Notes under the pieces: model-generated
The model's input: the letters and a program-made list of their open reading frames with translations, nothing else
Database searches by the model: none
Told to the model about the DNA's origin: nothing
Position numbers and translations under genes: made by a program
DNA from: Rhodosporidiobolus odoratus
Lineage: Eukaryota > Basidiomycota > Microbotryomycetes > Sporidiobolales > Sporidiobolaceae
Direction: 5' to 3'
NCBI GenBank assembly: GCA_034387635.1
Contig: JAOANU010000033.1
Span: 1 to 64,000, forward strand
DNA length: 64,000 bases
Part shown: one piece after another, positions 23,189-63,457 of the stretch
Numbering within the stretch: position 1 is the stretch's first letter
Layout: each line of letters opens with the position of its first letter

Positions 23189-24830
23189 TTGAGAAGGTCA
23201 TAACGGGTCACTTGATTGCACCGGCCCACGCATCCTCCATGCCTGCATGACAAGCGCAGCCCAATCCCCACACTGCCTATACCTTCCCAGCTTTCTGCAC
23301 CAGACACAACGCCCCTCCGATCACGGTATATCATGTGGTTTCCATTGCGGATCACAGCGCTCCCTGTTCAAGCAAGAAGTATCCTATTTGACAGGCTTGT
23401 AAGCTTGTGTACATCTTTACTCCGCTCTCCTCCTGATTCTGAGGTCCATACATCTTGCCTGCCCATGAGACGGAGTAGAACCTCTCTGGCAGGATCCCCT
23501 GGATCCCATGTCTCTTCCTGCTGTACTGAATTACCCTCTATTGTCAACATTGAAAATCAGCGTACTTATGAAGGTGGAGTGCCAAAAACTAGCTTCGTCA
23601 ACTTGCCATAGTGCTGTTGACAAAGGCATGATGTGCGGGCCCGGAATGGGCAACCGGAGGAGTGTGGCAGTTGTTCAACCCACGGCGCTACAGCAAACGA
23701 GATACACAGAGTCAGCGAGGGAATCACTCGTGTAATATTACTAGGAAGACAGGGCACATCATAGGGAGAATACAAATTGAGAAGAAAACATAGTGGAAGC
23801 AGCTGTTACTGTCCTGGACCCAGGACTGGATGAGCCAGAAGTCCCTGCCTAGCTTGTGGCTGGTGCAGCATGCTGAGCGCTGTAATAGAGAGGCAGTATC
23901 AGCGGCCAAATCATCTCAAGCAAGCTTGACGGGGAAAACAGCGCTGTTCACCGTTGTCAGGTGGTGGACTACACGGAGGCTCCGGTTCTGAGTCTTCCCC
24001 GACATCAGGAGTATGATCCTCATGTTTCCTCTGAATCTTTTTTTCCGAGTCCAGGCGTGACTTGACTTGAGCGGCGGTGTAGCACCTGTTCTCGCCTGGT
24101 ACCCACTGACCTGGTTTCTCCACTTTACGAGGCTCTCATGTATGCCGCAAACCTTGGGTTTGGAGTGGTGGCCGTGGATCCGGCTGTCCTCAATGTAGTA
24201 GGTGGGGCACTGTTAAGTCCGCTGCAGCTGCAAAGACCTTGCCAAATTGTCAGGTGTCTTTTTGATCCGGCGCTGACCTGCTCGCGACGCGTATGTGAGC
24301 ACAAGGGCAGTCCAGCAGGGGCAGCTAAATAGCACATCTCATTTACGTACCTGGAGCGCAAGGTGGCCAGCTGAGTGGGTATATCATCCAAATCCCCAGC
24401 TTCAATCTGCCCTTATCTCCATCATGCCTTGACTCACTCACATTTGTTCCACTGAAGACGCCAAACATGCTTGAGTCGGAGGCAGAAGCACGGTTTGAGG
24501 CTTGACTCCCTTGCGCACAGGGTTGAAGGGTAGTAGTGGGGGAATCACGTGTATTGCGCAAGCTAGGAGCAGCGGCAGCGAAATTGAGGGGGAGGGACAG
24601 ACTGAGAGAGGGTTTCAATCACCAATGTCGTTGAGGGCGTGAGAACCCCGCCAAGGATGATTCCGCAATATCTCATCGACAAGGAAGTGAAAGGCTGCAT
24701 CGCGGTCAAAACGCCTTTAGACGGTTTGTCTGCGGAAGAAAGCGGGCTGAGTTGGGCCTGAGTGCCGAGTAAGGTGACCGCAGAGAATACAGGATTCGAG
24801 CGCCGAGCGGTGCACAAATCAAGTCCGCAA
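23189..24830 (-). pseudogene. Multicopy gene-family unit A (decayed copy)
   Basis: This is a degenerate copy of the gene in unit B, head-to-tail with it. It is bounded on the left by the 12-mer TTGAGAAGGTCA (23189-23200). Fragments on the minus strand correspond to unit B exon 2 (24120-23911: YTAAQVKSRLDSEKK, then SEPEPP), exon 3 (about 23890-23800: HQPQARQG) and the C-terminal block (23550-23368: EVLLRLMGRQDVWTSE). An in-frame TAA after QLQRT and length changes break the exon 2 frame. The 5' block (ACCTTACTCGGCACTCAGG, about 24770-24750) is shared with other units. Confidence 0.75.
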
Positions 24831-26451
24831 TTGAGAAGGTCAACAAGGCCATTGTACTCTGGTTACACTGGCCCACACATCCTCCATGTGCCTTTAGAAC
24901 AGTCCCAATCCCTATGACTGCACTATCCATAGCTCTGTAGCCCCCTGTCATGGCCCGCACAATACACCCTATAAATCATGTAACTTCATTCGGGTCCCAG
25001 TGCCCATGATGCTGCCGCTGAGCCCATGTTGTGTGCTGCGGAAAGGCTTCATCCGTCAGCTTGTGTAGATCTTCTGTCTGCTTGCCCTTCGAATGTGTAG
25101 CTCAGAGGTGCGTACATTGGGTTGCCCCATCAGATGGAGTAGCTCCTCATCAGCAGAGTCTTTTGGTTGCCACGAAGGGTTTGCCGCCTGCTGCAAGGGG
25201 TTGCCCTGCACAAATAACTCAGAAATCAGCTGGTAATTGGAGAAGGACTTCTGGGATCTGACTCCGTTGACTTGCCATATTGTTCACGAGAGAGGCACAA
25301 CGACTTGGCCCTGAATGAAAGTCAGCTGCGTGCTGCAACAAATAAGACGACCAGGATAGCCAAACACATCAATGAAGAGTCACCGGATGGGCAGAGCAGG
25401 CCGCTGCGGAAAAAGCAAACATACCGGAGGCAGCTGTTGCTGTGCTGGAGCCAGGACCGGATGATCGAGAGGTTCTTCTCTAGCTTGTGGCTGGTGCACT
25501 CCACTGAGCGCTGTGATAGAGAGGCATCAGCGCCAAACCATCTCAAGCGAGCTTGACGGGGGATAGAAGGGCCACTCACGTTTATCAGGTGGTGGACCAC
25601 TCGGAGACTCTACTTCTGAGTCCTCCCCGATATCAGGATCATGCCGCGCCCCCCCATGTTTTTTCTGACGTTTTTGCTCCACGTCCAGGCGCGCCTTGAC
25701 TTGAGCGTGGGTATAGTACCTGTCCTCGCCTGATACCCACGGACCTGGTTTCTCCACTCCACAGACCTTCAGGTATGCCGCAAGGACCTCGGGTTTGGAG
25801 GCGTGGTAGCCGTCGATCCGGCTACCCTCAATGTACCAAGGGCGGTACTGATTACTCCGCTGCAGCCGCAAAGACTTTGCCTCGCGGTCGGACATCTGTT
25901 TGATCTGGCGCTGACCTGCTCGCTGATGTATGTGAGCACTAGGGCATTCCAGCAGGGCCAGTTGAAGAGCGCACCTCGATGCAGTACCTCGAGCGCCCTA
26001 TCATCCCAAATCTCCCGCTTCGACCTCAACTTGTCCATGCCAGCTACACTGATGACACCGAACGTGGTTTTGAGGAGGAGGCGGAACCGCGACTGGAGGT
26101 TTGATCCGGGTTCGACTTAGCGCCTGGCAGGGTTGAAGCGTAGTGTTGGGGGGGAGGGGGGGGGGGAGGGGGGTTGCGTGTATTGCGCGGGCCAGGAGCA
26201 GCGGCAGCAGAGATAGATAAGCGGGACAGAGACACAGAAAGAGCGAGAGTGTCAGGAGGCTAACCTCATACAGGAGCGGCGAGCCCGCGGAGCGGTGCTT
26301 CCGCGAAAGTCGAGGCGGTGAACCTCCGGACCGCGGTGTCGGACCTTCCATGGACGGGTCGTCTGCGGTTCGACGAGGGCTTTGAGCTGCCGGTAAGGTG
26401 GCAGTCGAGCGCTCAGAGTTGAGACTCCGCCAACTGTAGTTGAAAACGCGG
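24831..26451 (-). CDS. Multicopy gene-family unit B, unknown function
   Basis: Probable intact member of an undescribed family. Exons: 26038-25975, 25915-25580, 25510-25425, then one or more C-terminal exons down to about 25040. Exon 1 ends WDDRALEVLHRG with a phase-1 intron. Exon 2 begins GQRQIKQMSDREAKSLR and contains VLAAYLKVCG, YYTHAQVKARLDVEQKRQKK and an acidic GEDSEVESPSGPPPDK. Exon 3 encodes GVHQPQAREEPLDHPVLAP. The C-terminal block is FVQGNPLQQ..DEELLHLMGQ. Exon phases and the 86-nt exon 3 are identical in unit C. The unit is bounded by TTGAGAAGGTCA at 24831-24842 and TTAAGAAGGTCA at 26452-26463. No membrane segment. Function unknown; the coiled basic helix suggests nucleic-acid or protein binding, but this is only inference. 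Confidence 0.7.
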
Positions 26452-26463
26452 TTAAGAAGGTCA

Positions 26464-27112
26464 AAAGGAGCGAGGGAGAAAGGTGGGAGTCTCGCTCAAC
26501 AGGTGCCTCACCGCTGCACGCATTGCCGGTACAGGTCAACGAAAGCGCAACGACTAGCCTTCTACAGAGCCTACCTGCTCGCGAGTCGACCCCGGCATCG
26601 AGCATCGCCGCCAGTCTTCTCGTTTCTTACTGCATTCGACGCAAAATGCCTTCCGTTTCTTCTCTTTACTGATGTGTACAGCCCGACGCTCTCGCTCCCA
26701 GCCTCTTGGCGCACTCAGAGAGCAGCGCACGCCGCAAGACTTCTTTCGCTCCGTAAACCTCCTACTCAATTCTCGCCTTTCCTTGCCTCGCTGAGCGCGA
26801 GCCGCGACAGGTCTATTTCCATAGAAGAGAGGCCTGAGCGAGGACAAGAGATAGAGAGAACAGAACTGCGATACTCCACGACGTACAAAAGGGAATGATA
26901 ACGAGAAGCAGAACCGCGAGAACAGTCACGAGAGAAGCTCACCAGAGAAAAACAACCCCGAGAATGAAAGAGTAGGCACAGATGAATGGAAATGATGCAG
27001 GGGTGTACAGTTCGTGCGGTGCGGCTAAAACGATGGGGGAAGGGAGGAAGAATACAGTGCATGATGCGAAGAAGGAGAGATGAAGCGAGAAAGTCGGATG
27101 CCTCCCTTGCCT
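26464..27112. other. Intergenic, no gene seen
   Basis: Between unit B and the cyclin stop codon. Short overlapping frames only. It probably contains the cyclin 3' UTR. Confidence 0.5.
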
Positions 27113-30100
27113 TTACTCGACTTGCATCTCCGCCTCGTTCCCTCCTGCTCCCTCCACCCTCTCCCTCTCCGGCTCCCTCCCCCAACTCGCACTACTCCCC
27201 CTCCTTGAACTCCCACTTTTCCTATCCAAATCCGGACTATCCGCCGGACTCGGACTCGCGGTACTCCACCCATCGTCAAACTTGATCTTCTCCCTAACCC
27301 TGTCCATCCTAGCCTGCCTTCCTCTTTCCCACCTTTCCTCGTCGTCGTCCTGTCCTTCTTCGTCTCCATCATGCTCCCCGTCGTTATCCTCATCATCCTC
27401 GACTTCCGAGTTGAACCCTCCCCGGGAGGAAGAGAGCGTTCGAGTCGTACTCGGCGTGCCAGGCGTGACGGTACTCGAAGAGACAGAAGAAGCGACACTA
27501 GCAGCTGAGGAGAATGAAGTTGTCGATGTGTGAGAAGGGTGGGTGTAGGTTGGAGGACGCTTGGTAGTTGTCGTCGTGGTCGAGGTCGAGGTCGAGGTGG
27601 TTGGTTTGGATGAGGAAGATGGGCGAGGAACGGGAGCATTGGCCGTTGGGGATGAGACAGAAGGAGTCAAAGTCGAAGTCGAACCGGACGGGCGCGGCAT
27701 GCCTTCATCTACCACCTTCGCTTGGCCAGCGAAGCCAGCCCATTTCCACTGTGCCGCTGTGGATCCTTCACTCGGTGATTCCGGACGAGCGGGAGTACCT
27801 TTGTCCTGGCTAGGGCTAGGTATAGGACGAGGTACAGGCGGAAGCGGAAGAGGGTTCGAAGACGGATGAGGGGTCTTGCGATCCCTTCCGACCCAATAAA
27901 GGATGAGTTGGTCGGCGTAGCGTTGCAGTTCGTCGGTGGGGATTTTGAGGCGGAAGTCGTTCAGGAGGAGGAATTGCAGTTCGAGTTGGTTGAGCTCGGA
28001 GAGAGGGAGACCGCCGACCTGCGAAGTCGAGAACGGAGCGGCAAACGAAGGACAATATATGCAAGGCGAGGGAGGTAGATACTCAGCATTGTCCGGTGCC
28101 CGAAGGAGGAGGAAAAGAAGAGGTTGTTGACAAGGACCCGACAGGCGAGAGCCTAGAGGGAGGAAACAAAAGGGGAAGTAAACGCACCTTGGCATACCTC
28201 GAATTGGTATAAAACACATCCGAAAAGAACTTGCTCGCGACCGTAATCCCGGCAATAACCAGTCGATGAACGTTGAACGAGTCGATGGCGAACAAACCGG
28301 CTGCGGCGGGGTCCTTCTCTTCCGCCTTGGCTCCCTCACCGACTCCCTCACCGTCTTTTTCTCCATCCGCCCCTCCTCCTCCCCCTCCCAGAGAAGGTCG
28401 TTCCCCCGCCCCTCCACCCACATTCGAATGCCTCCGTCCAGGCAACCCCAACCTCTTCGCCTCCAATCCAACCCTAGCCATCCTATCCAAATAAACCAGT
28501 AGCGCCAGGAAAACCTCATTCGTAGTCGGGCAGTATTTGAGGATCCTGAGGAGGTAGGCTTCGATCGAGATGGCCGGAACGTTGCGGGCGTGGAAGCAGA
28601 GGGTTGCGGAGGGACTTGAGAGGGCTAGGGCGGAGGCGGTTAGGAGGGAGGTTGGAGGGGGGGTGGGAGAGGTTAGGGTACCGGATTGGAGGGTGTTGAA
28701 GGAGGTTGAGGGGGAGGTTGAAGAGAGGGGATGAGCCGGAGGTCGAGTAGAGGTAGAGGTAGAAGCGGAGGGAGGCTGCGATGTCGACGTCGCAGAAGAA
28801 GAGGAAGGAGCAGAAAGCGGAGTCATCCCTCCTCCGATCCCTCCCAATCCCGCCAACCCAGCTCCTCGATTCCTGATAAAGCTGCTTCCCCTCCGTCTCG
28901 CCAAGGGTTGAGGTCGATGCGTCCCTCCCAGACTAGGCATGAACCCCTCGACACACCCCCTATTCCCCGTCTGGCGGAGAAGATCCATTCCAGGAGTGAG
29001 CGGGACATCGTCTTCTTCCTCCTCCTCCTCATCGTCAGAATCAGAGTACTCCTCGTCCATAGCGTTGTCTAGGATTCCCGGTCCGCCTTCACCGCCCAGC
29101 TTCCTCCTCCGCCTCGCCCTAGGCGTAATCGGCGTATTGAGCGGAGCGGCATCGAATCTCCCCTTAGCCCAGCTCTCCTCCCCTTCAACGTCCTCCGCAG
29201 ACCTTTGACTGCTTACAGCCGGTGTCGAAGTCGCGTTCGAAGTCGAGGCGGCGTCGGCAGCGCAAGTCCGAGCCTTGACATTCCTGGCACCGTTCGCTTG
29301 AGCGATTTGTTCTAGCAACGCGGCTAGGAGACGCAGAAGGTCGGCAGAAGGGTAAGAGACGATATCGACGTGTTGTTCAGGTGACAGAGAGATGGAAGGT
29401 GCGGTAGCGATGCCAGCTTCGTTCTTCTTCTTCTTCGGGTCACTTGCAGCATCAACCGGTCGAGGATCGGGAGGAGGGGCATGGCGCTGAGTAGGGTGAG
29501 CAGAGGTAGAGTGTTGACGGCGAGGGGTGGGTCGAGTACGCTGCTGTGATCCTTGTTGAGATGATTGCTGCGGGTTTGGGGGCGAAGCTGGTTGTTGCAG
29601 TGAAGGCGAAGAAGGCAACTTCGTACAGGCGGCCTCTGATGGCGCCCACGACATTTCCGTCGCACTCGCGTCACTGACCGACAGCCCTTCGATCCTCTTC
29701 CTCTCCCTCTCCGCCTCGTTCTCCTGGGCCACCTCGACTTCCATCGGGACGCCTCTCGCAACCCGACCTTCGGGCTGTTCTTCTTCTCCTCCTCCTCCTC
29801 CTCCATCTTCTGGCTTCGGACTCCCATCCCCACTCCCACTCCCACTCGAAACCGTCGTCGCCAAACTCCCCACACTCCCTCCTCCGTGACTTCTCGGCGT
29901 CCTCCCCCCGACCCCCACTGCAGATCCAGCTCCCCCAAGCTGTTGAGACCTGCCAAATTCATCGGTATCGGCGACGGGGGCATGGTTCGGATCCTGGTCG
30001 AACACCATTGAGTCTCGACCTGAGGAAGTTGAAGTTGAAGAGGTTGAAGCGACGGAGGACGAGATGGATGAGGAGGAAGAGTGGGCGGGAGAGACAGTTT

Positions 30101-30323
30101 CGTCTCGATGCTCTTCTTCGGCTGCTGTTGTAGAAGAGGCGGCGGAAGGAGGCTGAGGCTGACGTTGAGACGAAGACGGAGACGAGGAGGAGAAAGAAGG
30201 TTGCGAAGAGGACACCGAGGGAAAATCCCGCGGATGAGAGTAGTGGTTGAAGGGAGAATGCGAATGGGTGGGCAGCGAGGGATGCTGCGAAGGAGGAGGC
30301 GGAGGATAGGCGGTCGTCGACAT
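27113..30323 (-). CDS. Pho80/Pcl-type cyclin
   Basis: Cyclin of the PHO80 family (partner of a Pho85-like CDK). Two exons: 30323-28188 and 28018-27113 (1013 residues). An in-frame ATG at 30650 would add 109 residues. The cyclin box spans the intron: IPAISIEAYLLRILKYCPTT, VFLALLVYLDRM, NVHRLVIAGITVASKFFSD, then VGGLPLSELNQLELQFLLLN and IPTDELQRYADQLI. An insertion of about 45 residues (GGGAGERPSLGGGGGGADGE) lies inside the box. The first 550 residues are Ser/Pro/Gly-rich and disordered, and the tail is Ser/Thr- and Asp/Glu-rich. It is much larger than yeast Pho80 (293 residues) but similar in layout to other basidiomycete PCL cyclins. Confidence 0.88.
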
Positions 30324-32073
30324 GGAGGCGAGGGGGTGGTCGTCTGCCGCCTTACTGGGCAGGGGTGGAGGGAGGAATGGTGGACTTGGTAAGCAGGGGA
30401 ATTTGGAGCGTGGGGTGCGTTGGCCTAGCGCAGGTAAACTTGTGTCTTGGGTACAGATGCAGCTGAACCGTGGACGAGGAGGAGACGAGAAATAGGTCAG
30501 CGACGGGCGGGACAAAAAGAAGTCCTCAACCTGCAGACGTCCAGCTGTGCGCGTGGCACTCGCAAGTGTCGTCTGTTGCTCCCCCATGCGCTGCCGTGTC
30601 TGTCCTGCTGTAACAAGCCTTGATGGCTGGACTGAAACATCTCCCGACATGGACGTCGCGAGATGCCAACCTCACTCGAACCAGCTGTCCTGACCTGCAC
30701 TGGGTGTACCAGCACCTCGCAACTGTCGAGGAAGCTTGACAGGGTTCGCGTGGGTCGAGGTGCCGAGGTGAAGCTAGAAAAGTGGCGGCGACGCATACAC
30801 CCCCTCGAAGTTCACCAGTCGACTAGGATGACAGATGGAGCCGGCGTGCGAGCACAAGAGACTGGGAGAGAGAGAGCGCACCTTGCTAGTAGTCTACTTT
30901 GTCAAGTTGTTGTAAGAGTGATTGGAGGTTGATGAATGAACGTAAGGAGACGATGAGAAACAGGAGAGTGAGACGCAGTCGTCAATCACAACCACAGCTG
31001 GACCGGAGAGAGGCGGAGTCTTGTCAACGAACCCGTGCGAACCTGCGGGTGGTACTCGCTTGGCCTCCGATTCGACACAGGACTAAATCCAGCCAAGCCC
31101 ACATGGGCACCATCATTCCTTTTTCCAGCCAGTCTCGCTTTTTTTCTCGCTTTATGTACCAGACAGACTACCCGGTCAGAGGCAATTACATCGTTCAAAG
31201 CGCCCAAGTCCGAACCGCAAACTCGTTTTGACTGAAAAGGTCTGCTCAGCGTTGCCAGTTGGCGGGCCGCCGCGGGCCGTCCCCGTGTAAAGCGACTGCC
31301 CAGTGCACACTACGCGCTGACCTGCAGGCTACACAACTTCGAGAAGGGGGATGTGGCTCTGCCAGGAAAGGGGTCAAGTCGCCGAACGCGGGCAAATCAT
31401 GCAACAGAGAAAGAACAAAAACTGGAGAAAGTGGTCTGCAACCCGTTCGTACCGCATGGAGCACGATTCGGCCTCGTCGAGGGTCGGTGTCTCGCATTTG
31501 CGCAGGTCGCGTAGACGCCAGGGGCATTGGAGACAGAAGTACGAGTAGCGACTTCGCGGAGGAGAAGAGGAGGATGAGGTGGACTTCAGCAAGCGGCAGG
31601 GCGTACGCGCTGGCAATCACGGTCGCAGCGTATCGTCAATGGTGATGGCGGAGGCAGAGCATACGGTTAGAGTCATGGATATTGGCCGAGGCTGCAGGAA
31701 GCGAGATCGTCGAGTACCAGGAGGAAGGGAGGGGACACGGACTTATATGCTACCCTGTCACCGGTCGTACCGACGTCGAAAGGACATTGTGCATGGTCCA
31801 GAGGACTTCAGGCGATCACGCGGACCCTGCGATGGCCAACGATGAGGCTTGTTGATGTGATTCAGGAAGAGCGAGTGCTGCAGTGCGAGTATGGCGAGGG
31901 CAACGAGCGCAGCTGACCATGACGACCTCTGATGTACTTGTCAGTTGAGCGATCACGCTATAGCCAGCTTCCAAACGAGGTGAGCGAGGTGGGAAAGAGC
32001 AGATTGCGAACGGCGGGGACTCTCAACTTCGATTCCTCGACTCGCTACCGGCAGGTATAGCTAATACGTGTAC
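30324..32073. other. Intergenic region left of the triplication
   Basis: This contains the cyclin 5' region and about 1.4 kb without a convincing gene. Frames on both strands near 31246-31645 overlap and lack family features. On the plus strand 31955-31972 reads SQLPNE before a GTGAGC donor, an F-box-like start that may be the original 5' end of the LRR-like gene continuing into copy 1. Confidence 0.45.
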
Positions 32074-33649
32074 GGCGTACTATGCGGAGCTCCCAAAGTA
32101 CCGTGGACTGATCGATCAACGCCCCTCTTGCGATCGACGGGTTCTCTTTCGACCTTTGGTTTCCTCGCCTTATTGCGGCTGCCACTCATCAAGGTCCGTA
32201 ACAGCCATTCTTTGGACTCGTACACGCTCACTCCCGTCAAGCTCAGCTTGCAGCATTGGCCAAGCTCCGCGCACCCGAATCACATCCCCTTCATCGCCGA
32301 CATGTCCCTCTCCCCCTTCTCTTCTTTCCCTCCTTCTCCAATCCGCTCTCCACCCAGACTGCCAACCGCCACTCTGACCAGCCTCCCTATCGAGTGAATC
32401 TCCCAGATAGCCACTGACGTTCCCCGATCCAGTTTCCTAGCCTTTCCCCTTGTCTTCTCCTTCAACCCATACCGCTTCACCCCTTCCCTGTACAAGCACG
32501 TCAAGCTCGCATTTGCCAGCCTCGACGAGGATCAAGTCACCTTGGCGCGAGTGGAGGAACGCATGGTGGCAGCTCTGTCCGGCATGATTCGCAGCCCGGC
32601 GAATATCAAGAAGCCAATCGCAAACTCGAGCTGAGAGGTTTTCCGGGCGAGTAGTATGACGAGGGTTACTGCCGTCACTGCTCGGCTTTGTCGTGAGCCG
32701 CACAGTCAACCTAAAAGAGTTCAAGCTCGTAAGTTTTCCCGTCAATTTTGCCTTGTGTCATTCTCGCGACATTCCACATACTTGAATCCCGAACGCGCAG
32801 ATCGGTCAAGAAACCAGCGACCGCACCTTCTCTCCCTTTCGTCAATCTCTTTCACAAAAGCCTCGGCGCATTGCCGCATCTACGCAAACTTGGACTAGAC
32901 CGCTGTCCTCTACTGCCAGCCCTCAACCTTGACACCTTCCCCGCCTTACAAGAGCTCCATTTGGCGCACTACCATGTCCAAGTTGATCGAGATGGAGCCC
33001 TACCCTCGACCCTCACGCGCCTGAGGCTCGAAAATGTCACCGTCACCGCTTCGCAACTCGGTAACGACGTCAAGCCATGAGTTGACGCAGACGTGTTGGC
33101 ATCTCTCGAGGTCTTGGTCCTGGTCGACGTGGGTTTGCTGTCGCTTCACTCGCTGCTTGTGGCCATATGTTTGTCGGTCGGGTTTGAACCTCGTCCTTTT
33201 CCTCCTTCTCCAATTCCATACTTCGACCAACGACTCCCTCAACGCCGTCGCCGTAGTCTACGTCCATGTATCACACCGCCCGCATAGACCTGTATCGAGA
33301 GGTTTCCCTCCTCTTCAAGCACCCTCTGCCGCGTCTCCCTCGACCTGCACACCTCACCCGGCCTCCCCGATCCCGTCAACTCCCATTCCATCGCCCTCCG
33401 ATCCATCCTCTCCACCGTCTCTCAACTCGAAACTCTCTCCTACCTAAAGAAAGGAAGAGTGGGGGGGAAGGAGAGGACGGGAGGTAAGGGGTTTGGGGGT
33501 TGGAGAAGGAGGAGGTGAGGGAGGGGAGGCTTATGGGGGGGAGGATGAGTTAATGTGAGAGTGGTGAAGATGAATCAGAGGCGGAGGCTACCCGGACAGA
33601 CGAGGACGAGTACGAAGACGAAGACGAAGACGGGTTGGGGCAAGATTGA
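31940..33649 (+). pseudogene. F-box/LRR-like gene, copy 1, probably decayed
   Basis: The plus-strand frames read like a fungal F-box/LRR protein: LPNE at 31960; LYKHVKLAFASLDEDQVTLA near 32490; LPHLRKLGLDRCPLLPALNL and FPALQELHLAHYHV near 32870-32980; LASLEVLVLVDVGLLSLHSL near 33100; QLETLSYLKKGR near 33430; and an acidic tail YEDEDEDGLGQD ending at 33649. A TGA at about 33078 separates two LRR blocks in the same frame. It could only be removed by a 30-nt intron, shorter than any other here. The first exons are unclear. Recognition is by pattern only. Confidence 0.5.
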
Positions 33650-34153
33650 ACTTGACTGACGAGGCGGTAAGACGAAGCGACTTGGTCGAGCAGTCCCTGC
33701 ATTACCCGGATTTCGTCCGGATCCGCCACTCTTTTGAGTACGGGTCCTGAGTAAGTCTCTTTATTTTCCTGAGTAAGTATATTGATGTATTCTGGGAGTC
33801 CTCTTGAGAGGGTGTGAAAGGCTTGCTGATCGCTAGGGAGAGCGAGACTAAGTACGAGAAAATACGGATATTGCGGAATAGGACCAAGGTCAAGAAGGAA
33901 AGAGGAGAGGGAAAGTAGGACTAAGAATCAGGAGGAGCGGAGCGGACGCGCGCGTGAGAGAGAGACAGCGAGAGAGAGAGGAAGAGGGCACTGCTAGAAC
34001 GACTACTACTGTAAGAAAGAAGGGATTAAGAAGCGAATAACTTGAGCGTGGATGTGAAGAAACGCGACGGCGAGGCGAGGTGCAAGGGCCGGGAGTAGGG
34101 GGGAAAATGAAGAAAAGGGTCGACTCGAACCACCTAACTCCCGTTCTGCACTC

Positions 34154-35476
34154 TCACATCTGACCCTCACTCCAAAGTACCGGTAAAAGCACGACACAAG
34201 CCGTCCAAAACACCTTTACGGCCTTGATTCCCAATCTGGGGTACTCCCTCACGGTTGGTTTTTGATTCCGGGGGGAGAGGGCAGGAGAGGTGAAGAGGAG
34301 GTAGATTGAGTAGAAGGCTACTCGGAAAAAGTGGTAGAAGAGGAGGGAGGGGGAGGGGCGGAGACTGTTCGGCGGGGCAGGAAGGTGAGGCATGGGGGCA
34401 TGGAGGGTATTAGCAAGCAGCCTCGACGCGAGAGACGAGAGCGGAGAATACGAGGTAGGGAGAGAGACCTACGCAGACAACAACGACACGGGACCTTGAA
34501 CGCATTCGCCTCCCAACTCGAAATACTTGAAACAGCCCGCTTTGAGAATCTCGAGGTTGTCGTCTGCGCAGAGAGAAGCGAAGCCGCGAGAAAGCGTAGA
34601 GGGTTTTCGTGTCGTTTCGGTTCGTTCAGTCGTTGGCGAGGCGAGATAGATGAGGTGGGTCGAGGTGCGAGGTGCGAGGTGCGAGGTACAAACGCGAATG
34701 CGGGGCGAGAATGAGAGGAAGGAAGGAAGGAAGGAAGGAAGGAAGGAAGGAAGGAAGGAAGGAAGGAAGGAAGGAAGGAAGGAAGGAAGGAAGGAAGGAA
34801 GGAAGGAAGGAAGGAAGGAAGGAAGGAAGGAAGGAAGGAAGGAAGGAAGGGAGGAAGGGAGGAAGGGAGGAAGGGAGGAAGGGAGGAAGGGAGGAAGGGA
34901 GGAAGGGAGGAAGGGAGGAAGGGAGGAAGGGAGGAGGGGGAGGGGAAGGGAGGAAGGGAGGAAGGGAGGAAGGGAGGAAGGGAGGAAGGGAGGAAGGGAG
35001 GAAGGGAGGAAGGAAGGAAGGAGTAGAGGGGGAAACAGAGTCAATAAACAAAGACACGTATGTGGCAAGGAAAGGAAAGGAAAGGAAAGTCAAGGACACG
35101 AAAAGAACCCCCGCAACGTACCTTCAGCCCCAAACAACGAATACAGCGCCAAACTCAGCACGTTGACACAACTCGCCACCCCTTTCCTCCTCCAATGCCA
35201 CTCTTCCAACCTCTCCCCGACCTCCAACCAACTCTCCAACAGGACCTTTCCTCTCTGATCCTTCTCAATCTCGCCAACTTGATCCGTCTCGTCCCCTCCC
35301 AGGAGAGAAGTGAGAATGACTGCGTCGGAACAGGCGACCGTCATCCCCCCTCCTGTCAACGGATGACGCATATTCAACGCATCCCCAGCGAGTAAAGCCC
35401 CCTGAACGTCTCGGCCTTGAGGATGAGCCGGTAACCAACTGTTCGGCATGCTCCTCAACCTATACTTTTTGTCCTC
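34154..35476 (-). pseudogene. ERG1 3' fragment, copy 1
   Basis: Last third of squalene epoxidase without its N-terminal 340 or so residues. The frame starts at the segment junction (35476) with the RSMPNSWLPAHPQG region, continues through GDALNMRHPLTGGGMTVACSD, and keeps the microsatellite intron and both terminal exons (stop at 34154). The full gene has Phe where this copy has Cys in TVAFSD. It lacks the FAD-binding start and cannot encode an active enzyme. Confidence 0.92.
34717..35022 (+). repeat. (GGAA)n/(GGGAGGAA)n simple repeat, copy 1
   Basis: About 130 bases of pure GGAA followed by about 165 bases of GGGAGGAA-type units. In the ERG1 sense strand this is TTCC/TTCCTCCC, a polypyrimidine run inside the next-to-last intron. 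Confidence 0.97.
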
Positions 35477-37051
35477 GGCGTACTACGCGGAGCTCCCAAA
35501 GTACCGTGGACTGATCGGCGAACGCCCCTCTTGCGATCGACGGGTTCTCTTTCAACCTTTGGTTTCCTCGCCTTATTGCGGCTGCCACTCATCAAGGTCC
35601 ATAACAGCCATTCTTTGGACTCGTACACGCTCACTCCCGTCAAGCTCAGCTTGCAGCATTGGCCAAGCTCCGCGCACCCGAATCACATCCCCTTCATCGC
35701 CGACATGTCCCTCTCCCCTTCTCTTCTTTCCCTCCTTCTCCAATCCGCTCTCCACCCAGACTGCCAACCGCCACTCTGACCAGCCTCCCTATCGAGTGAA
35801 TCTCCCAGATAGCCACTGACGTTCCCCGATCCAGTTTCCTAGCCTTTCCCCTTGTCTTCTCCTTCAACCCATACCGCTTCACCCCTTCCCTGTACAAGCA
35901 CGTCAAGCTCGCATTTGCCAGCCTCGACGAGGATCAAGTCACCTTGGCGCGAGTGGAGGAACGCATGGTGGCAGCTCTGTCCGGCATGATTCGCAGCCCG
36001 GCGAATATCAAGAAGCCAATCGCAAACTCGAGCTGAGAGGTTTTCCGGGCGAGTAGTATGACGAGGGTTACTGCCGTCACTGCTCGGCTTTGTCGTGAGC
36101 CGCACAGTCAACCTAAAAGAGTTCAAGCTCGTAAGTTTTCCCGTCAATTTTGCCTTGTGTCATTCTCGCGACATTCCACATACTTGAATCCCGAACGCGC
36201 AGATCGGTCAAGAAACCAGCGACCGCACCTTCTCTCCCTTTCGTCAATCTCTTTCACAAAAGCCTCGGCGCATTGCCGCATCTACGCAAACTTGGACTAG
36301 ACCGCTGTCCTCTACTGCCAGCCCTCAACCTTGACACCTTCCCCGCCTTACAAGAGCTCCATTTGGCGCACTACCATGTCCAAGTTGATCGAGATGGAGC
36401 CCTACCCTCGACCCTCACGCGCCTGAGGCTCGAAAATGTCACCGTCACCGCTTCGCAACTCGGTAACGACGTCAAGCCATGAGTTGACGCAGACGTGTTG
36501 GCATCTCTCGAGGTCTTGGTCCTGGTCGACGTGGGTTTGCTGTCGCTTCACTCGCTGCTTGTGGCCATATGTTTGTCGGTCGGGTTTGAACCTCGTCCTT
36601 TTCCTCCTTCTCCAATTCCATACTTCGACCAACGACTCCCTCAACGCCGTCGCCGTAGTCTACGTCCATGTATCACACCGCCCGCATAGACCTGTATCGA
36701 GAGGTTTCCCTCCTCTTCAAGCACCCTCTGCCGCGTCTCCCTCGACCTGCACACCTCACCCGGCCTCCCCGATCCCGTCAACTCCCATTCCATCGCCCTC
36801 CGATCCATCCTCTCCACCGTCTCTCAACTCGAAACTCTCTCCTACCTAAAGAAAGGAAGAGTGGGGGGGAAGGAGAGGAACGGGAGGTAGGGGGTTTGGG
36901 GGTTGGAGAAGGAGGAGGTGAGGGAGGGGAGGCTTATGGGGGGGAGGATGAGTTAATGTGAGAGTGGTGAAGATGAATCAGAGCGGAGGCTACCCGGACA
37001 GACGAGGACGAGTACGAAGACGAAGACGAAGACGGGTTGGGGCAAGATTGA
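35477..37051 (+). pseudogene. F-box/LRR-like gene, copy 2, 5'-truncated
   Basis: Same reading blocks as copy 1 but lacking the 5' start, because the segment junction is inside the gene. It shares the internal TGA. One base is lost in the acidic tail (GAATCAGAGCGG against GAATCAGAGGCGG, about 36980), shifting the frame. Confidence 0.6.
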
Positions 37052-37550
37052 ACTTGACTGACGAGGCGGTAAGACGAAGCGACTTGGTCGAGCAGTCCCT
37101 GCATTACCCGGATTTCGTCCGGATCCGCCACTCTTTTGAGTACGGGTCCTGAGTAAGTCTCTTTATTTTCCTGAGTAAGTATATTGATGTATTCTGGGAC
37201 TCCTCTTGAGAGGGTGTGAAAGGCTTGCTGATCGCTAGGGAGAGCGAGACTAAGTACGAGAAAATACGGATATTGCGGAATAGGACCAAGGTCAAGAAGG
37301 AAAGAGGAGAGGGAAAGTAGGACTAAGAATCAGGAGGAGCGGACGCGCGCGTGAGAGAGAGACAGCGAGAGAGAGAGGAAGAGGGCACTGCTAGAACGAC
37401 TACTACTGTAAGAAAGAAGGGATTAAGAAGCGAATAACTTGAGCGTGGATGTGAAGAAACGCGACGGCGAGGCGAGGTGCAAGGGCCGGGAGTAGGGGGG
37501 AAAATGAAGAAAAGGGTCGACTCGAACCACCTAACTCCCGTTCTGCACTC

Positions 37551-38819
<1,269 letters not shown>

Positions 38820-40385
38820 GCGGAGCTCCCAAAGTACCGTGGACTGATCGGCGAACGCCCCTCTTGCGATCGACGGGTTCTCTTTCAACCTTTGGTTTCC
38901 TCGCCTTATTGCGGCTGCCACTCATCAAGGTCCATAACAGCCATTCTTTGGACTCGTACACGCTCACTCCCGTCAAGCTCAGCTTGCAGCATTGGCCAAG
39001 CTCCGCGCACCCGAATCACATCCCCTTCATCGCCGACATGTCCCTCTCCCCTTCTCTTCTTTCCCTCCTTCTCCAATCCGCTCTCCACCCAGACTGCCAA
39101 CCGCCACTCTGACCAGCCTCCCTATCGAGTGAATCTCCCAGATAGCCACTGACGTTCCCCGATCCAGTTTCCTAGCCTTTCCCCTTGTCTTCTCCTTCAA
39201 CCCATACCGCTTCACCCCTTCCCTGTACAAGCACGTCAAGCTCGCATTTGCCAGCCTCGACGAGGATCAAGTCACCTTGGCGCGAGTGGAGGAACGCATG
39301 GTGGCAGCTCTGTCCGGCATGATTCGCAGCCCGGCGAATATCAAGAAGCCAATCGCAAACTCGAGCTGAGAGGTTTTCCGGGCGAGTAGTATGACGAGGG
39401 TTACTGCCGTCACTGCTCGGCTTTGTCGTGAGCCGCACAGTCAACCTAAAAGAGTTCAAGCTCGTAAGTTTTCCCGTCAATTTTGCCTTGTGTCATTCTC
39501 GCGACATTCCACATACTTGAATCCCGAACGCGCAGATCGGTCAAGAAACCAGCGACCGCACCTTCTCTCCCTTTCGTCAATCTCTTTCACAAAAGCCTCG
39601 GCGCATTGCCGCATCTACGCAAACTTGGACTAGACCGCTGTCCTCTACTGCCAGCCCTCAACCTTGACACCTTCCCCGCCTTACAAGAGCTCCATTTGGC
39701 GCACTACCATGTCCAAGTTGATCGAGATGGAGCCCTACCCTCGACCCTCACGCGCCTGAGGCTCGAAAATGTCACCGTCACCGCTTCGCAACTCGGTAAC
39801 GACGTCAAGCCATGAGTTGACGCAGACGTGTTGGCATCTCTCGAGGTCTTGGTCCTGGTCGACGTGGGTTTGCTGTCGCTTCACTCGCTGCTTGTGGCCA
39901 TATGTTTGTCGGTCGGGTTTGAACCTCGTCCTTTTCCTCCTTCTCCAATTCCATACTTCGACCAACGACTCCCTCAACGCCGTCGCCGTAGTCTACGTCC
40001 ATGTATCACACCGCCCGCATAGACCTGTATCGAGAGGTTTCCCTCCTCTTCAAGCACCCTCTGCCGCGTCTCCCTCGACCTGCACACCTCACCCGGCCTC
40101 CCCGATCCCGTCAACTCCCATTCCATCGCCCTCCGATCCATCCTCTCCACCGTCTCTCAACTCGAAACTCTCTCCTACCTAAAGAAAGGAAGAGTGGGGG
40201 GGAAGGAGAGGAACGGGAGGTAGGGGGTTTGGGGGTTGGAGAAGGAGGAGGTGAGGGAGGGGAGGCTTATGGGGGGGAGGATGAGTTAATGTGAGAGTGG
40301 TGAAGATGAATCAGAGGCGGAGGCTACCCGGACAGACGAGGACGAGTACGAAGACGAAGACGAAGACGGGTTGGGGCAAGATTGA
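38820..40385 (+). pseudogene. F-box/LRR-like gene, copy 3, 5'-truncated
   Basis: Truncated at the junction like copy 2, with the same internal TGA. The acidic C-terminal tail is in frame, unlike copy 2. It lies convergent to ERG1, whose stop codon is about 500 bases downstream. Confidence 0.6.
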
Positions 40386-40884
40386 ACTTGACTGACGAGG
40401 CGGTAAGACGAAGCGACTTGGTCGAGCAGTCCCTGCATTACCCGGATTTCGTCCGGATCCGCCACTCTTTTGAGTACGGGTCCTGAGTAAGTCTCTTTAT
40501 TTTCCTGAGTAAGTATATTGATGTATTCTGGGAGTCCTCTTGAGAGGGTGTGAAAGGCTTGCTGATCGCTAGGGAGAGCGAGACTAAGTACGAGAAAATA
40601 CGGATATTGCGGAATAGGACCAAGGTCAAGAAGGAAAGAGGAGAGGGAAAGTAGGACTAAGAATCAGGAGGAGCGGACGCGCGCGTGAGAGAGAGACAGC
40701 GAGAGAGAGAGGAAGAGGGCACTGCTAGAACGACTACTACTGTAAGAAAGAAGGGATTAAGAAGCGAATAACTTGAGCGTGGATGTGAAGAAACGCGACG
40801 GCGAGGCGAGGTGCAAGGGCCGGGAGTAGGGGGGAAAATGAAGAAAAGGGTCGACTCGAACCACCTAACTCCCGTTCTGCACTC

Positions 40885-48821: not shown

Positions 48822-49454
48822 GCTTGATTGGCGAGGAAGGGGAGACCGGAGATGGTGGGTGAGTGGATGGGTGCGGGGCAAGCAGAGGAAGCGCAGCACG
48901 AGGACGGTTGGTCGTGGGGAAAGTGTGTAGGGGGGATGACGGAAGTAAATACAGAATGTCGTTGTTGTCTCTTCCTGGGAGGTGCGAGGTCGAAGCATCG
49001 AGGAGCCGCTTCTAGTACACGGACAGCGGAGACTGTCACTATCCAGTAGGTCGTCACCGGTGGAAGATGAGAGCTCCAGCGGGACGGATCGTTCGTCCTC
49101 ATCCTGCCTTCCATTCTGCGGGACCCCACATACATAGTAGCTCTCACCGGTCGCCCTCGCAACTACTGAAATCTCCGCTGCAGGCCTCAGATTCTCCACT
49201 CGGAGTACGCAGCTTCCACGCCGTCGGGGCAACGCAGACTTGAGAAGGTCAAGCTAAACTTGCAACAATGCTGTGCTCGCCTTCCCCGCCGCCTCCGCTC
49301 TGCACAGGACCTCAGCTTGGCTCGGGCAGGGTAAGCGCTCCGCGGAGGTGATGATTAAAAAGTTGACGTTCACGTCCATGCGGGCTTTTCTCTTCTTTCC
49401 CTTGCTTTCCCTCTTTCGATCCCGTTCGCATTCACCCTTTTCCCGTACCTCGAC
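48822..49454. other. Intergenic with solo family boundary motif
   Basis: About 630 bases without a gene. It contains TTGAGAAGGTCA at 49240-49251, the same 12-mer that bounds the multicopy-family units, here without a recognisable unit beside it. Confidence 0.5.
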
Positions 49455-50346: not shown

Positions 50347-50452
50347 CAGATTGATGTATCGATACTGGGTAGCAGAGGCCGCGTGGAGGTAAGGCATGAG
50401 GAAGGGAGGCAAAGCCGTGTGTGCAATGTCCTCGTTGTCACGACCTCCTGGA

Positions 50453-55763: not shown

Positions 55764-55994
55764 CCTGCCTGTTTAGAGAGAGTCGACGGCGAGCAAGCTG
55801 AGACGGAGACGAGATAGGCCGAGCAATCCCAAGATTTCGGCCGGCGTGCTATCGCAAAGATGAGGGAGGCGCACACGGTAGATGAAAGGGCAGAGCAACG
55901 GAGAGTCGAAAAGGACGCGGGAGCTGAGCCAAAATGCCGCAACGATTAGGGCACTTTGCAACGATGACGAGAAAGGCTCCGGGCTGTGTCGCGC

Positions 55995-58453: not shown

Positions 58454-59936
58454 TTACTTACGCCTGTTTCCTTGCTGGAGTAGCAAAATTCGAATTATGG
58501 AAGTAAACAAGTTTATGACATCCAAGATCATAGATACGCTCTCCCGGATGGGATCCGCCCGGATAACGCCCCTCTGAGCGAGATGGGCATTGCGACGAAT
58601 CTTTTGCGTGTCATAGAGGATCATACCGCTGAAGACAGCTATTTTCCCCGTTGCAAAACAAAGACATCAGCGACTGTTTCTTTTCGGCAAGGGAGACCGG
58701 GGAGCCGGAGGGTCGGAAGCAGAAAGACGCACCGACACCTCCGTAAGCTCCGACACGCTCGAGATTGGTCATGGTGCGAAGAGCCATTCGGGGCATGAAC
58801 ATCGGGGCGAGGTTGGCGCAGACTAGGACGCCGAGACCGGCGAGGAGGGGACCGCCTGTGCGTCACACATTCACAGCACGACAAAGGGAAGGGTCCAGGT
58901 TAGTAGGAGGTACGAATACCAGACGCGAGTCAGGAAAGGAAGGCACGAGAAAACACAAGATTGGGTGGAGAGGACAGATGAGAAACGCACCAATCCACAA
59001 GTACTTCTCACTCTCGGCCGTAGCGCCTACATAACTGATTCCACCGACGGCACCGAGGGTGTAGAGACCAGCGCGACCGAGAATGGCGGGGGCGAGGAAG
59101 AACATGGGAGAGAGGGTGAGGCCTTGCATGGTCGAGAAGGCGGCCCAGGAGGCGTAGTGGAGGGGAGAGTCGGGGGCGGTGTAGTACACGCCCTGTCAGA
59201 AGGAATAAGTGATCATTCGCCCTGTGACGGCGGAGAAAAGCCGAAGAGGGAACTAAGAGGCTCACCATCATACTGCCGATACTGAGCGCTGCACCACCCG
59301 CCATCACAGCCCAGGGGTTGGCACTCATCAGCCTCACAGCCAATCCGTTCTGGTGAGCCAAGTAGGCAGCGGCTGCCGTGATGGTCAACCCACCGGCCGT
59401 CCAGCCGAACGTCTTGCGGAGGTAGTCGCCCTCGAAGCTAGCGAGTGTACCTTCAGGCTGGTTGAGAAGGAGATTGAGAGCTACGGCACCAACGGCACCC
59501 TGTACATGTGAAACAGAAATCAGTCGATTCGGTTGATCTCAGTAGAGCGAGAAAAAGGAAGTGACTGCGAGTACACGCAGAAGGAGAGCACGGGTAGACG
59601 CAGAGGGATAACATGAGGACGTACGACTCCGAAATTGATGCCTACTTTCCTCCAGTCAACCTGCTGCTTGCCCCCACCATACGCCGGCTGCTGAACCGTC
59701 GCAATGCCCCTCTTCCCACTCGCATTCCCACCGGCCTTGAAGGCTTCACGGGATTTAATCCACGTCTGAGTTCGTTGCTGAGCTGGTGAGAAACGGAATG
59801 CGGTACGGGCTGAGGTGGTGAAGAGACGGGAGGAAGTGGAGGAAGTGGAGGAGGAAGTGGCGAGTGGTCGGAGGAGAGTTGGGGATGATCGAGTAGCGTG
59901 AGAGAGTGAGGGGAGCACGCGTGTGAAGCTTGTCAT
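58454..59936 (-). CDS. Mitochondrial Bax-inhibitor-1 family protein (GHITM/MICS1-like)
   Basis: Inner-membrane protein of the TMBIM/BI-1 superfamily; animal relatives shape cristae and affect calcium/proton exchange. Exons: 59936-59628, 59499-59266, 59192-58991, 58855-58733, 58638-58454 (350 residues, phases close). Residues 1-45 are a Ser/Arg/Thr-rich presequence. Seven hydrophobic segments follow, with motifs FGWTAGGLTITAAAAYLA, SANPWAVMAGGAALSIGSMM, LSPMFFLAPAILGRAGLYTL, VGGISYVGATAESEKYL and AVFSGMILYDTQKI. The end QQGNRRK is typical. Intron 1 uses a GTCGTA donor, like ERG1 intron 1. Confidence 0.92.
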
Positions 59937-60533
59937 GCTGTGTACGTGTGTGTAGCGGTAAGTTCTAAGAGGAAAAGAAAGAGCAAGTCGTTTCGGCAAC
60001 TGATGAAACTCGTCGTCACCGTTCTACACTCTTCCATAGCCGCTAGTTTCGAGCTGACAGGCCGCTCACAGCATACTGCATCTACTAAATCTGTCGCTAG
60101 CTGCCGCCCGCTCGCGCTCCGGTCTGCCCGTGCCGCTCTCACCCTCGTTGGCATCCTCTCGGCAAGTCGACGCCCGACGGCCACCTACCAAGCAGCCACT
60201 CTGCACAAGTCTACATTGTTCCGGTCAGGCCGTGCCGCGCCAGCCCACCACCGACAAGTCTGTCAAGAGGGAGTCGACCCGGCAAGACTTCACTGCCTCG
60301 TCTTTCTTCGCGCTTTCACACTCCGCGGGCTTACCGCTAGGGGACGGCGGTTGACGCGAAAAGGATGGCTTGCCCTGTCTCTCTCTCTTGCTTCGACTGT
60401 CTGTCGCTCCAATCTAATTCTGCTGCCGCATCGTCTGGTTCGCTGCCGCTTCTCCAGCTGTTGATCACCCCCTGGGCAGCCCAATCAAGCCTTCCGGTCG
60501 CTGTCTGATCGCCTTCAATCCACAGGAACAGCA
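59937..60533. other. Upstream region between the mitochondrial gene and family unit C
   Basis: 597 bases holding the divergent promoters. The 5' boundary of unit C should lie here, but I find no TGACCTTCTCAA motif in this stretch. Open frames are Arg/Ser-rich shadows. Confidence 0.4.
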
Positions 60534-61776
60534 ATGAGCAACTCCAGAAATGGTCTTTGGGACCCACACACTGTTAAAGGCCGTCGGGCGCTTGAACTCT
60601 TAGCTGAAGGTGCGTTTTCTAGCTGCGCTTCGCTAAGAAGATCAACCACTCAATACCTTAAACGAGCAGCTAAGCAACATGTCTATTCGAAAGACGACCT
60701 CCTCTCCGGGGCCCTGTCGAGCGTGTCAGGCCTTTACAATAACCCCAACAAGCAAGTCATCTGGTGTTTTATCGACCCTGCGGACAATTCTGCTGTCAAA
60801 GGGCCCTTCACTCGAACCACTGCCCTCGCGGAGTACATAGCGGCTCGCGCGTCAGGCCAGGAGGTTTGCCCCAATCACAAACAAATAAAGTCGCGCCTAC
60901 AGCACGAAAAGCTGCAAAGGAAAAGCCGGGGGCAGGAGGACTTGGTGTCGGGACCTTCGAGCGTTGCTCGACGTCATTACCGTGAGTGGCTCTGGTGTTC
61001 CGTGTCCGTGAGCGCCGAAGCGAGCGGGGCCTCGTGCTTGAGCTGACCCATCTCTGCCCCTCTCTTCTAGCGCACAGTAGGGTGCACCAGCCACAAGCTA
61101 GACAGGGACCTCTGGCTCGTTCGGTCCTGACTCGAGGACAGCGACCGCTGCTTTCAGTGAGATTTCTTCTCATGCTGTGATCTCTCCGCGGCTTGCCCTG
61201 TGTTCCAAGTGGAGTTCCTCGAGACTTCCTGGCTGACTGTGTGTCTCGTGCGCTGTAGCGCCCTGTCGTTGGAGATGACCACCCTCCTCCTGTTACACAT
61301 CCCGGGCCCACGCGTCTTGCCTTTGTCAACAGCACTACGGCAAGTCGGCAGAGCCATCTTCCGGTACTCCTGCTGACATCACCATGCTGACTTTCGAGTA
61401 CTTTGTGCAGAACAACCCCTTGCAGCATGTGGAACCTCCCTCCGGGCAGCGAGATAACCGTGATGACGAGGAGTTACTCCGCTTGATGGGGCAGCAACCT
61501 GTATGTACCTCCGAGTATGAGGGGCGAGCAGATGGAAGATCTAGACAGGCTGACAGACCGTTTTTCGCAGGATGCAACGCGGGTGGCCCGGCCGTGGGAC
61601 CATGGGCACTGGGACCCGAATGTGTACCGTGATTTATAGGGTGCATTGTGCGGGCCATGACAGGGGGTTAGGGAGCTATGGACAGTGCAGGAATAGGGAT
61701 TGGGACTGTTCTAAAGGCACATGGAGGATGTGTGGGCAAATGTGACCAGAGTACAATGGCCTTGTTGACCTTCTCA
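60534..61776 (+). CDS. Multicopy gene-family unit C, unknown function
   Basis: Member of the same family as unit B. Exons: 60534-60609 (ending GRRALELLAEG, phase 1), 60670-60981 (contains LAEYIAARASGQE and HKQIKSRLQHEKLQRKSRG), 61071-61156 (HSRVHQPQARQGPLARSVL), then a C-terminal part around 61384-61630 with FEYFVQNNPLQH and DEELLRLMGQQPVCTSE. Exon 3 is 86 nt and the phases are identical to unit B, although exon 2 proteins differ widely. The unit ends at TGACCTTCTCA (61766-61776). The 3' flank (61656-61776) matches the reverse complement of 24960-24831. Function unknown. Confidence 0.65.
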
Positions 61777-63457
61777 TCCGCGTTCTCAAGTCTGTCTTCT
61801 CAGTAGGGACCTTACTGGGTACTCAGGCTCAAAGCAGTGTGCTGTCCCTCCGCAGTTGACCCGTCTTAAGCAGGTCCGCCCGTGATCCGACCTATCACTG
61901 CCTTGTTGATATTTGCGGCATCATCATCCGCGGGCTCACCGTTCTCGTCGAAACGGCCGTTGTCTGGTCGCGCACACACACCTTTTGTCGTCTCGCTGCT
62001 CGCTCTTTAGGATCGTCTGCACGTCCAAAATCCCAACCAGCTCCAAACCAATCTGCCCTTCGCTCCTTCCCACCTACGCTCCCCAGAGCCAGAAGAAGCG
62101 AGGCAGCCATGAGCGAGGACAACGGTCGCCACTCTCCGGCACATACAGAAGCGTCGGCGTTTACAGGTCCAATCTATGACGAGCGCGCACTTCGGGTTCT
62201 GACTCGAGGTTCGTCTTTCTTTCTTTTTTCTCCCTCATTTGCCCACCTTGAGCTGACTTTGCACTACTGACAGGTCAACGCCATCTTCAACGCATTGATG
62301 AGCGTGAAGCACGCCGCAGCGCAGCCTTGTGGCGTCGGTCGGACCTACCGGCACCCACGGAGACCTTCAACAAGAACCGCAAATATGATCTGAAGGGCCA
62401 CCCCACCCGCTACGGACGGAACCAATTCCTCCAGGCATTCATGCACGACCGCAACGCAACAATGTTACAGGGACAGCCTTTACACTTCTGCAAATCAAGT
62501 GGCGTTTGCGACAGGACAAAGCAAAGCGTGAAAGCGGATCCAGCAATCTGCCTCTCGTTTTTGGGGGAGGAGTCTGAGCCAGAACCCAGGGAAGACGGGA
62601 GCCGTGACAAAGGTGAGTCATGGTTCTGTTTCCCCATCCCGGGACTTAGGCTAATCTGACAGCTTCGGGCTTGATCCTGGTCAGATTGTCCCAATTTTGG
62701 AGAGCCGGGCTACAAGCGCGCTTGGAAGGCACGCTACAAGAAAGTAAGCCCCTTCACTGGATAACAAGTGGTGACTGATCTGAGTCGGCTTCTGCACAGC
62801 TTGACAGACCGCTCGAAGACGCCGCGCAATGAGCACCGAGTGAGCCCGATTCCGAGAATAGCACAGCCAGTATTCACTTGGCGGGTTCCCCCTCTCCAGT
62901 TTCAGCATCCAGAAGCCCTCGTCCTTCTAGCTCTGTACATCAACCGATTGCCCGAGACAGGCTGCCTGAGACCGCACTATTCTCTTCAACAAAGCAGTCT
63001 GAAGCCTCTGAGGTATTCCCCTTTTTCTTCTACGCCTACCTGCTGAGTGGTTGACTGATCTCCTTCTTGATCCTACGACACGGGCTCCATAGCCAGGCGA
63101 TATCAACCATAAACGGCAAAATCAGATTATGTATAAACAGGATTTCACTCCACAGCTCCGGGGATTCTTCCCTCCGTCTCGTAAGTTCAGGGCGCACCCT
63201 CCTTCCAGATGTCTGCTTCAAAGATATGACTCACATCAGCTTGACTTGCAGGACTACCTGCTGAGCATGAGAAGTCTCGTGCACCACATCAGACAATAAA
63301 GCAGAGCAACGTTTAGAACAGCCATTAGCTATCAACCAAACATAGCTCTACCAAGACTGTCCTCCATATAGAAGGTAGCCTGCTGTAAGCTACTACTGTA
63401 CAGCAATAAAAGCCATGCTGCCGGCCAGTGGGAGACCTTCTCGACTGACCTTCTCAA
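61777..63457 (+). CDS. Multicopy gene-family unit D, diverged member
   Basis: Head-to-tail behind unit C. Exons: 62109-62208 (ending YDERALRVLTRG, phase 1) and 62274-62612 (GQRHLQRIDEREARRSAALW, a central TRYGRNQFLQAFMHDRN, and acidic GEESEPEPREDGSRDK, phase 1). The intron positions and phases equal those of units B and C. Exons after 62612 are unclear (a piece FGEPGYKRAWKARYKK near 62710 or an overlapping frame). The 5' block at 61805-61875 (ACCTTACTGGGTACTCAGG) is shared with the block ahead of unit A. The unit ends with TGACCTTCTCAA at 63446-63457. Confidence 0.6.

Follow-up and report, generated by a model that had tools for sequence, protein, structure and literature searches.

This analysis concerns a small cluster of divergent gene copies, together with the 12-bp motif at their edges, in a 64,000-nt stretch of the basidiomycete red yeast Rhodosporidiobolus odoratus (Sporidiobolales; bases 1-64000 of a 101-kb contig; genome of 24.8 Mb in 45 contigs), which is referred to below as the window. 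Four gene units, A to D, lie in it as two head-to-tail pairs, A/B on the minus strand and C/D on the plus strand, the pairs being inverted relative to each other and 34 kb apart (Table 1). An original prediction, made from the letters of this DNA, had placed two minus-strand units at ∼23.2-26.5 kb and two plus-strand units at ∼60.5-63.5 kb, and these coordinates were confirmed. At the DNA level, A and B are 77.7% identical over 591 bp, B and C 75.4% over 492 bp, and A and C 73.9% over 348 bp; the junction between B and A also aligns, across the 12-bp motif, with that between C and D. When exons 1 and 2 were compared as protein, D matched B with a score of 77, reached by none of 2000 shuffles, C showed a weak likeness to B (4 of 2000 shuffles as high), and D showed no resemblance to C (1823 of 2000 shuffles as high). 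Units A to D are a real, local family of gene copies, to which D is assigned by exons 1-2 and its 5′ flank only.

Two of the units retain intact genes, B with an open spliced frame of 230 aa and C with one of 237 aa. Their exons were called from splice signals and from the B-C comparison, and are predictions. The exon lengths give intron phases of 1,1,0,0,0 in both genes, as the original prediction of conserved phases had implied, and all introns have GT-AG borders except intron 4, which is GC-AG in both. Exon 2 measures 336 nt in B and 312 nt in C (312-339 nt had been proposed), and the proposed 86-nt third exon encoding HQPQAR is present at that length in both. A sixth exon (HGHWDPN) had been overlooked in the proposed gene model; the proposed FVQxNPLQ block proved to be partly intronic, with NPLQ in exon 5 and FVQ at the end of intron 4. 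B and C are tandem paralogues with equal phases, each beside a decayed copy, as expected of a tandem orphan family. Because unit A has a stop inside three of its four matched pieces and the QIKWRL segment of unit D lies in a different frame from the surrounding exon 2, two of the four copies (A and D) are probably dead, although the frame break in D could instead be a sequence error.

Table 1. Gene units, predicted exons and motif copies in the window (positions count from the first base of the window; motif copies are those with at most one mismatch)
Feature	Position	Strand	Remarks
Unit A, decayed copy	23189..24842	-	motif to motif; 77.7% identical to B; stops
Unit B, intact gene	24831..26463	-	motif to motif; six exons, open spliced frame of 230 aa
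B exon 1	25975..26038	-	64 nt; WDDRALEVLHR; phase 1
B exon 2	25580..25915	-	336 nt
B exon 3	25425..25510	-	86 nt; VHQPQAR
B exon 4	25276..25332	-	57 nt; followed by GC-AG intron
B exon 5	25116..25205	-	90 nt; NPLQ..DEELLHLMGQ
B exon 6	24976..25035	-	60 nt; HGHWDPN; absent from the original prediction
Unit C coding region, intact gene	60534..61639	+	open spliced frame of 237 aa; phases as in B
C exons 1 to 6	60534-60609, 60670-60981, 61071-61156, 61259-61339, 61411-61500, 61571-61639	+	76, 312, 86, 81, 90 and 69 nt
Unit D, probably decayed	61766..63457	+	motif to motif; exon 1-2 likeness to B; out-of-frame segment
D exon 1	62109-62208	+	
D exon 2	62274-62612	+	partly out of frame
TGACCTTCTCAA	23189..23200	-	3′ edge of A
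TGACCTTCTCAA	24831..24842	-	between B and A
TGACCTTCTTAA	26452..26463	-	5′ edge of B; one mismatch
TGACCTTCTCAT	61766..61777	+	between C and D; one mismatch
TGACCTTCTCAA	63446..63457	+	3′ edge of D
TGACCTTCTCAA	49240..49251	-	apart from units

Identity between B and C rises from the 5′ side to the 3′ side and peaks in the non-coding 3′ end. It amounts to 66% in exon 1 (z = 2.0), 62% in intron 1 (3.5), 60% in exon 2 (3.4), 67% in intron 2 (4.0), 79% in exon 3 (14.0), 66% in intron 3 (2.1), 67% in exon 4 (3.7), 71% in intron 4 (8.4), 68% in exon 5 (11.4), 81% in intron 5 (11.1), 73% in exon 6 (8.5) and 92% in the 3′ non-coding DNA (26.7). Exon 2 is thus conserved no better than the adjacent introns, which bears out the claim of fast evolution. 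The ratio of nonsynonymous to synonymous substitution rates (dN/dS) was 1.35 for exon 3, 0.43 for exon 5 and 0.38 for exon 6, or 0.64 over the combined 75 codons, which suggests weak constraint on the C-terminus and falls short of proving that it is coding. Either gene conversion or selection would fit the conserved 3′ ends. Recombination within the cluster, which had been proposed, is plausible in view of the two inverted tandem pairs and of the contrast between the 3′ non-coding DNA and exon 2.

No relative of these genes was found outside the window. A DNA probe of B gave no match elsewhere in the genome, and protein probes of B, C and D gave one outside match each (E = 0.049, 0.107 and 0.044), all with internal stops, match counts in these genome searches being lower bounds. 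Among 5.8 billion proteins, no homologue at E≤10 was found for B (122 candidates; the query carried an earlier version of the C-terminus) or for the B-C alignment (4,302 candidates), these searches covering proteins. Pfam returned no family for B, C or D up to E 10, and hence no recombinase or transposase domain. TEA, homeodomain, GYF and KilA-N domains had been considered as candidates for exon 2 and were dropped, as Pfam was empty to E 10 for whole proteins and cut pieces alike. AlphaFold2 gave poor models of exon 2 alone (predicted local distance difference test score 58 for C and 50 for B), Foldseek found no match to the C model at E≤0.001, and a sequence search of the PDB gave nothing for C and only three matches for B (E 0.06-0.38). 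Near motif sites outside the units, the exon-1 word D.RA gave scattered matches only, none with the exon-1 consensus.

The proposal of a lineage-specific family without a known domain has thus held as far as these proteins and Pfam reach, and “multicopy” applies within the window, no further member having appeared in the genome searches. These results support a view of the family as lineage-specific orphan genes, so far found solely in this red yeast. Lineage-specific tandem gene families evolve by birth and death, and the present cluster resembles such families in its tandem copies, common exon structure, decayed members and lack of a detected outside homologue; it is unlike them in that a conserved 3′ end grades into an almost unalignable exon 2.

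The 12-bp motif, TGACCTTCTCAA, lies at the 3′ side of all four units (with one mismatch in the case of C). The window contains six matches at ≤1 mismatch compared to 0.51 expected, and five of the six are unit edges, although these copies are not independent, as tandem duplication copied some of them. Ahead of C (59900-60533), no plus-strand motif was found within 3 mismatches. A minus-strand open reading frame (ORF; 27113-28624) ends 650 nt before the far motif of B (26452). The motif had been described as a boundary shared by the units; it is exact at 23189, 24831 and 63446 and one mismatch away at 61766, and it is not specific to the units. A proposed 5′ block, ACCTTACTNGGNACTCAGG, does precede A and D, and these two copies, both in the window, are the only ones in the genome at ≤1 mismatch. 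Within the reach of these searches the gene family is confined to the window, while the 12-mer recurs across the genome.

In fact, the motif is abundant: the genome holds 840 exact copies compared to 3 of a reversed control word, and 2,544 compared to 130 at ≤1 mismatch, i.e., about 2,400 sites over control. Its tolerance of substitution is uneven. Variants at position 9 (counting from 1) number 299 (control, 3), and 97 of 100 listed carry C or G, whereas variants at position 5 number 16 (control, 8). A decaying repeat would vary equally at the two positions and a recognised site would not, so the freedom of position 9 and near-fixation of position 5 argue for a recognised site. Such a contrast between two positions, in a word that outnumbers its reversed control 280-fold, suggests that a strong sequence-specific factor acts across this basidiomycete yeast genome. 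In a sample of 65 sites (59 outside the window), conservation sets in at -1, where 51 of 65 have T or C, and is lost by about +20, which gives the consensus YTGACCTTCTCAANYYNGTTTT; there is none from -30 to -2. Even after masking of the exact copies that lie outside the window, GACCTTCTCA had the highest z of all 10-mers in 272 kb (14 vs 1.6 expected, both strands), in a ranking that left the window's own copies unmasked and drew on loci chosen for the motif. A literature search for ACCTTCTCAA plus Rhodotorula found no paper, from which absence from print cannot be claimed; matches listed for the 12-mer and its 10-mers have titles on unrelated topics, and in the main text of a paper on Sporidiobolales genomes (PMC12093110) a term match gave no odoratus, intron, motif, promoter, transposable or orphan.

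Motif sites shun coding-like sequence. Only 15 of the 59 outside sites lie in a stop-free stretch with a codon score above 8, whereas random positions drawn from these loci gave 25.6 ± 3.3, with none of 200 draws as low; some sites do occupy coding-like places. In this small sample the sites also tend to be oriented with respect to genes: with each locus represented by one site, coding upstream of the motif was stronger on the same strand than on the opposite one in 21 of 26 loci (p = 0.0025). All eligible sites, which are not independent, gave 31 of 39, and dropping 17 likely intronic sites left 18 of 24 (p = 0.023). Splice donors on the motif strand were found at -75 to -15 in 26 of 65 sites (40%), a share reached in none of 500 random draws (random positions, 18.7%), and an open spliced frame fits 12 of the 65, compared to 6.0 ± 2.1 at random (60 draws, highest 11) and to 5 of 65 in antisense. 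One site, by its splice signals, lies inside an intron of an Avl9 homologue (locus L032). No tRNA gene was found in 40 motif loci and no Rfam family in 17; mapping codon scores in 90-nt steps gave too much noise to be of use.

The reading we prefer, and hold with about even confidence, is that of a local orphan family with copy gain and loss, flanked by a genome-wide cis-element that perhaps serves as a 3′-end or insulator site. The family would have arisen by local tandem and segmental duplication followed by loss of copies, exchange may keep the unit 3′ ends alike, and the intact genes would produce protein. The edge motif would be one instance of an oriented, genome-wide cis-element bound by a putative sequence-specific factor, and such a site could end or insulate transcription in the manner of Reb1 roadblock sites in budding yeast. 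It is the position of the motif, downstream of a same-strand gene or in an intron, that suggests this role, and the step from recognition to termination is one that we infer. Reb1 and TTF-I sites are known roadblock terminator systems, and the motif is like them in its apparent orientation, often 3′ of a same-strand gene in this sample, and in combining strict with tolerant positions; it differs from them in sequence, and some copies lie in introns. The bolder form of this proposal, namely that TGACCTTCTCAA is the core of an undescribed class of oriented transcription boundary with about 2,400 uses, at which a putative factor would halt or insulate transcription, both in introns and between genes lying on one strand, is tentative and on present evidence improbable. 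If it were true, young and fast-evolving gene arrays such as A-D would bear a boundary site at their unit edges. The gene family adds to the orphan genes without detectable ancestry, with copy gain and loss visible within one cluster; the motif is of wider importance than the family.

Several observations weigh against a gene family flanked by termination or insulator sites. The combined dN/dS is no proof that the genes get translated. Upstream of the motif site at 49240, coding is stronger on the opposite strand. In 20 loci with 500 nt of upstream DNA (L047-L066) the same-strand lead was 13 of 20 (p = 0.26), so that set does not show the bias, and the same-strand lead downstream of the motif was 17 of 26 (p = 0.17). 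Contig 1 supplied all 59 outside sites, among which loci L027-L038 were chosen for close motif pairs. Predicted stops range from inside the gene to ∼1.2 kb off, with 21 of 35 at 446-1192 nt, distances that exceed what a simple terminator would lead one to expect; missed exons could account for part of this. A terminator within gene introns is an odd placement, and the pyrimidine-rich DNA past the motif would suit a promoter or the end of an intron.

Chief among the alternatives is that the motif serves as a promoter or core-promoter element in a regulon to which the family belongs, which we regard as rather unlikely. CT-rich DNA is common in fungal promoters, pyrimidines climb to 59% in the first 100 nt past the motif, and the motif starts 425 nt (B) and 343 nt (D) ahead of the start codon. 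However, pyrimidines at +100 to +400 (54-56%) do not exceed their level at -600 to -1000 (53-56%), some sites lie within gene bodies, and the coding bias sits in the upstream gene rather than in the downstream one.

Splice signals near the motif raise the possibility that it is an intron feature, either an extended branch-site region or the core of introner-like introns, and we consider this doubtful. The motif opens with YTGAC, which resembles a branch site, and sense donors are enriched 15-75 nt upstream, with twice the random number of open spliced frames; however, 53 of the 65 sites fit no such frame, the intron-like sequences share nothing obvious by eye except the motif, unlike introner copies, and neutral copies would not give 299 compared to 16 variants at two positions. 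Fungal introner-like elements (PMC4457414) are similar in that a sequence recurs in introns of unrelated genes. They are near-identical introns in many genes, whereas here only the 12-mer and a weak tail (∼12-22 bp) recur, most sampled sites fit no intron model, and the mismatch spectrum is uneven. An RNA element in 3′ untranslated regions, recognised by an RNA-binding protein instead of at the DNA level, would suit the sense placement downstream of genes equally well; it is likewise improbable, as the distance to most predicted stops is long for a 3′ untranslated region and antisense donors are also somewhat enriched (32% vs 20%; 7 of 500 draws as high).

Least probable by far is that the units are small transposon copies ending in 12-bp repeats, such as Crypton-like or non-autonomous elements inserting at TGACCTTCTCAA. 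In favour, A, B and D are flanked by same-strand motif pairs (one of the pair mismatched in B and D), much as Cryptons and other transposons with short direct repeats lie between copies of a short word, and the similarity of B to other units starts about 5 nt ahead of its far motif. Against it, genome searches with DNA and protein probes yielded the window only, Pfam found no recombinase, transposase or reverse transcriptase domain, and the flanking word occurs genome-wide without units, sometimes in short introns too small to hold one, and with an uneven mismatch spectrum. The suggestion of mobility in the original prediction is not borne out.

A further candidate, a mega-family of related genes marked by the motif, was rejected. 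The ORFs with Pfam matches (6 of 20 ORFs in 17 motif loci) belong to unrelated families: Avl9, importin-11, MutS V, GH18, homoserine dehydrogenase and, below cut-off, MFS. Contrary to this rejection, L008 and L031 are 75% identical over 546 bp, L035 and L038 71% over 230 bp, and L005 and L064 have a weak ORF match (E = 3e-4). Apart from this last pair and one further gene family, no ORF matches between sampled motif loci were found. That family, a second divergent and clustered one, occupies loci L029, L030 and L043 on contig 1 (276-279, 346-350 and 364-367 kb). The exon at L029:5991-6563 has seven other genome matches at E≤0.1 (27-51% identical, one with an internal stop). Contig 1 holds six of these, at 276-367 kb, and contig 2 a single weak one (E = 0.08). 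With exons placed by eye, the motif precedes the start codons of two copies in L029 and of one in L030, and it also lies within the last intron in L029, L030 and L043; the last exon, SLAKSFIPQAR, is conserved, and in two copies an 18-nt mini-exon encoding RPYP follows directly on the motif-bearing intron. The presence of the motif beside fast-evolving tandem genes is therefore not unique to the window, although two clusters prove no rule.

Other features were seen at the sampled loci and in the rest of the window. At about 5670-5820 of L030, a degenerate copy, AACCCTCTCAACTCCGGCC, lies about 140 bp beyond an exact motif, and the DNA separating the two includes a GAGTCC-rich palindromic stretch. 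Three repeats near an end of contig 1 (L001, L002 and L003, 5.5-16.4 kb), possibly subtelomeric, are 94-99% identical, and each carries the 12-mer. Between the two gene pairs (window 32073-42155) lies a ∼3.36-kb unit in three tandem copies, 96-97% identical and with purine-rich low-complexity stretches, of which the last runs into the 3′ part of an ERG1-like ORF (41769-43256); because of this overlap the remaining copies probably hold ERG1 fragments. Over 98% of its length, the ORF shares 99% identity with the R. odoratus protein JCM11641_004320, the next match (70%) being from another Rhodosporidiobolus species. At the start of the window lie a plus-strand tRNA-Asp (gtc) at 12-83 and a second, minus-strand tRNA at 327-427, called by Rfam only and perhaps with an intron.

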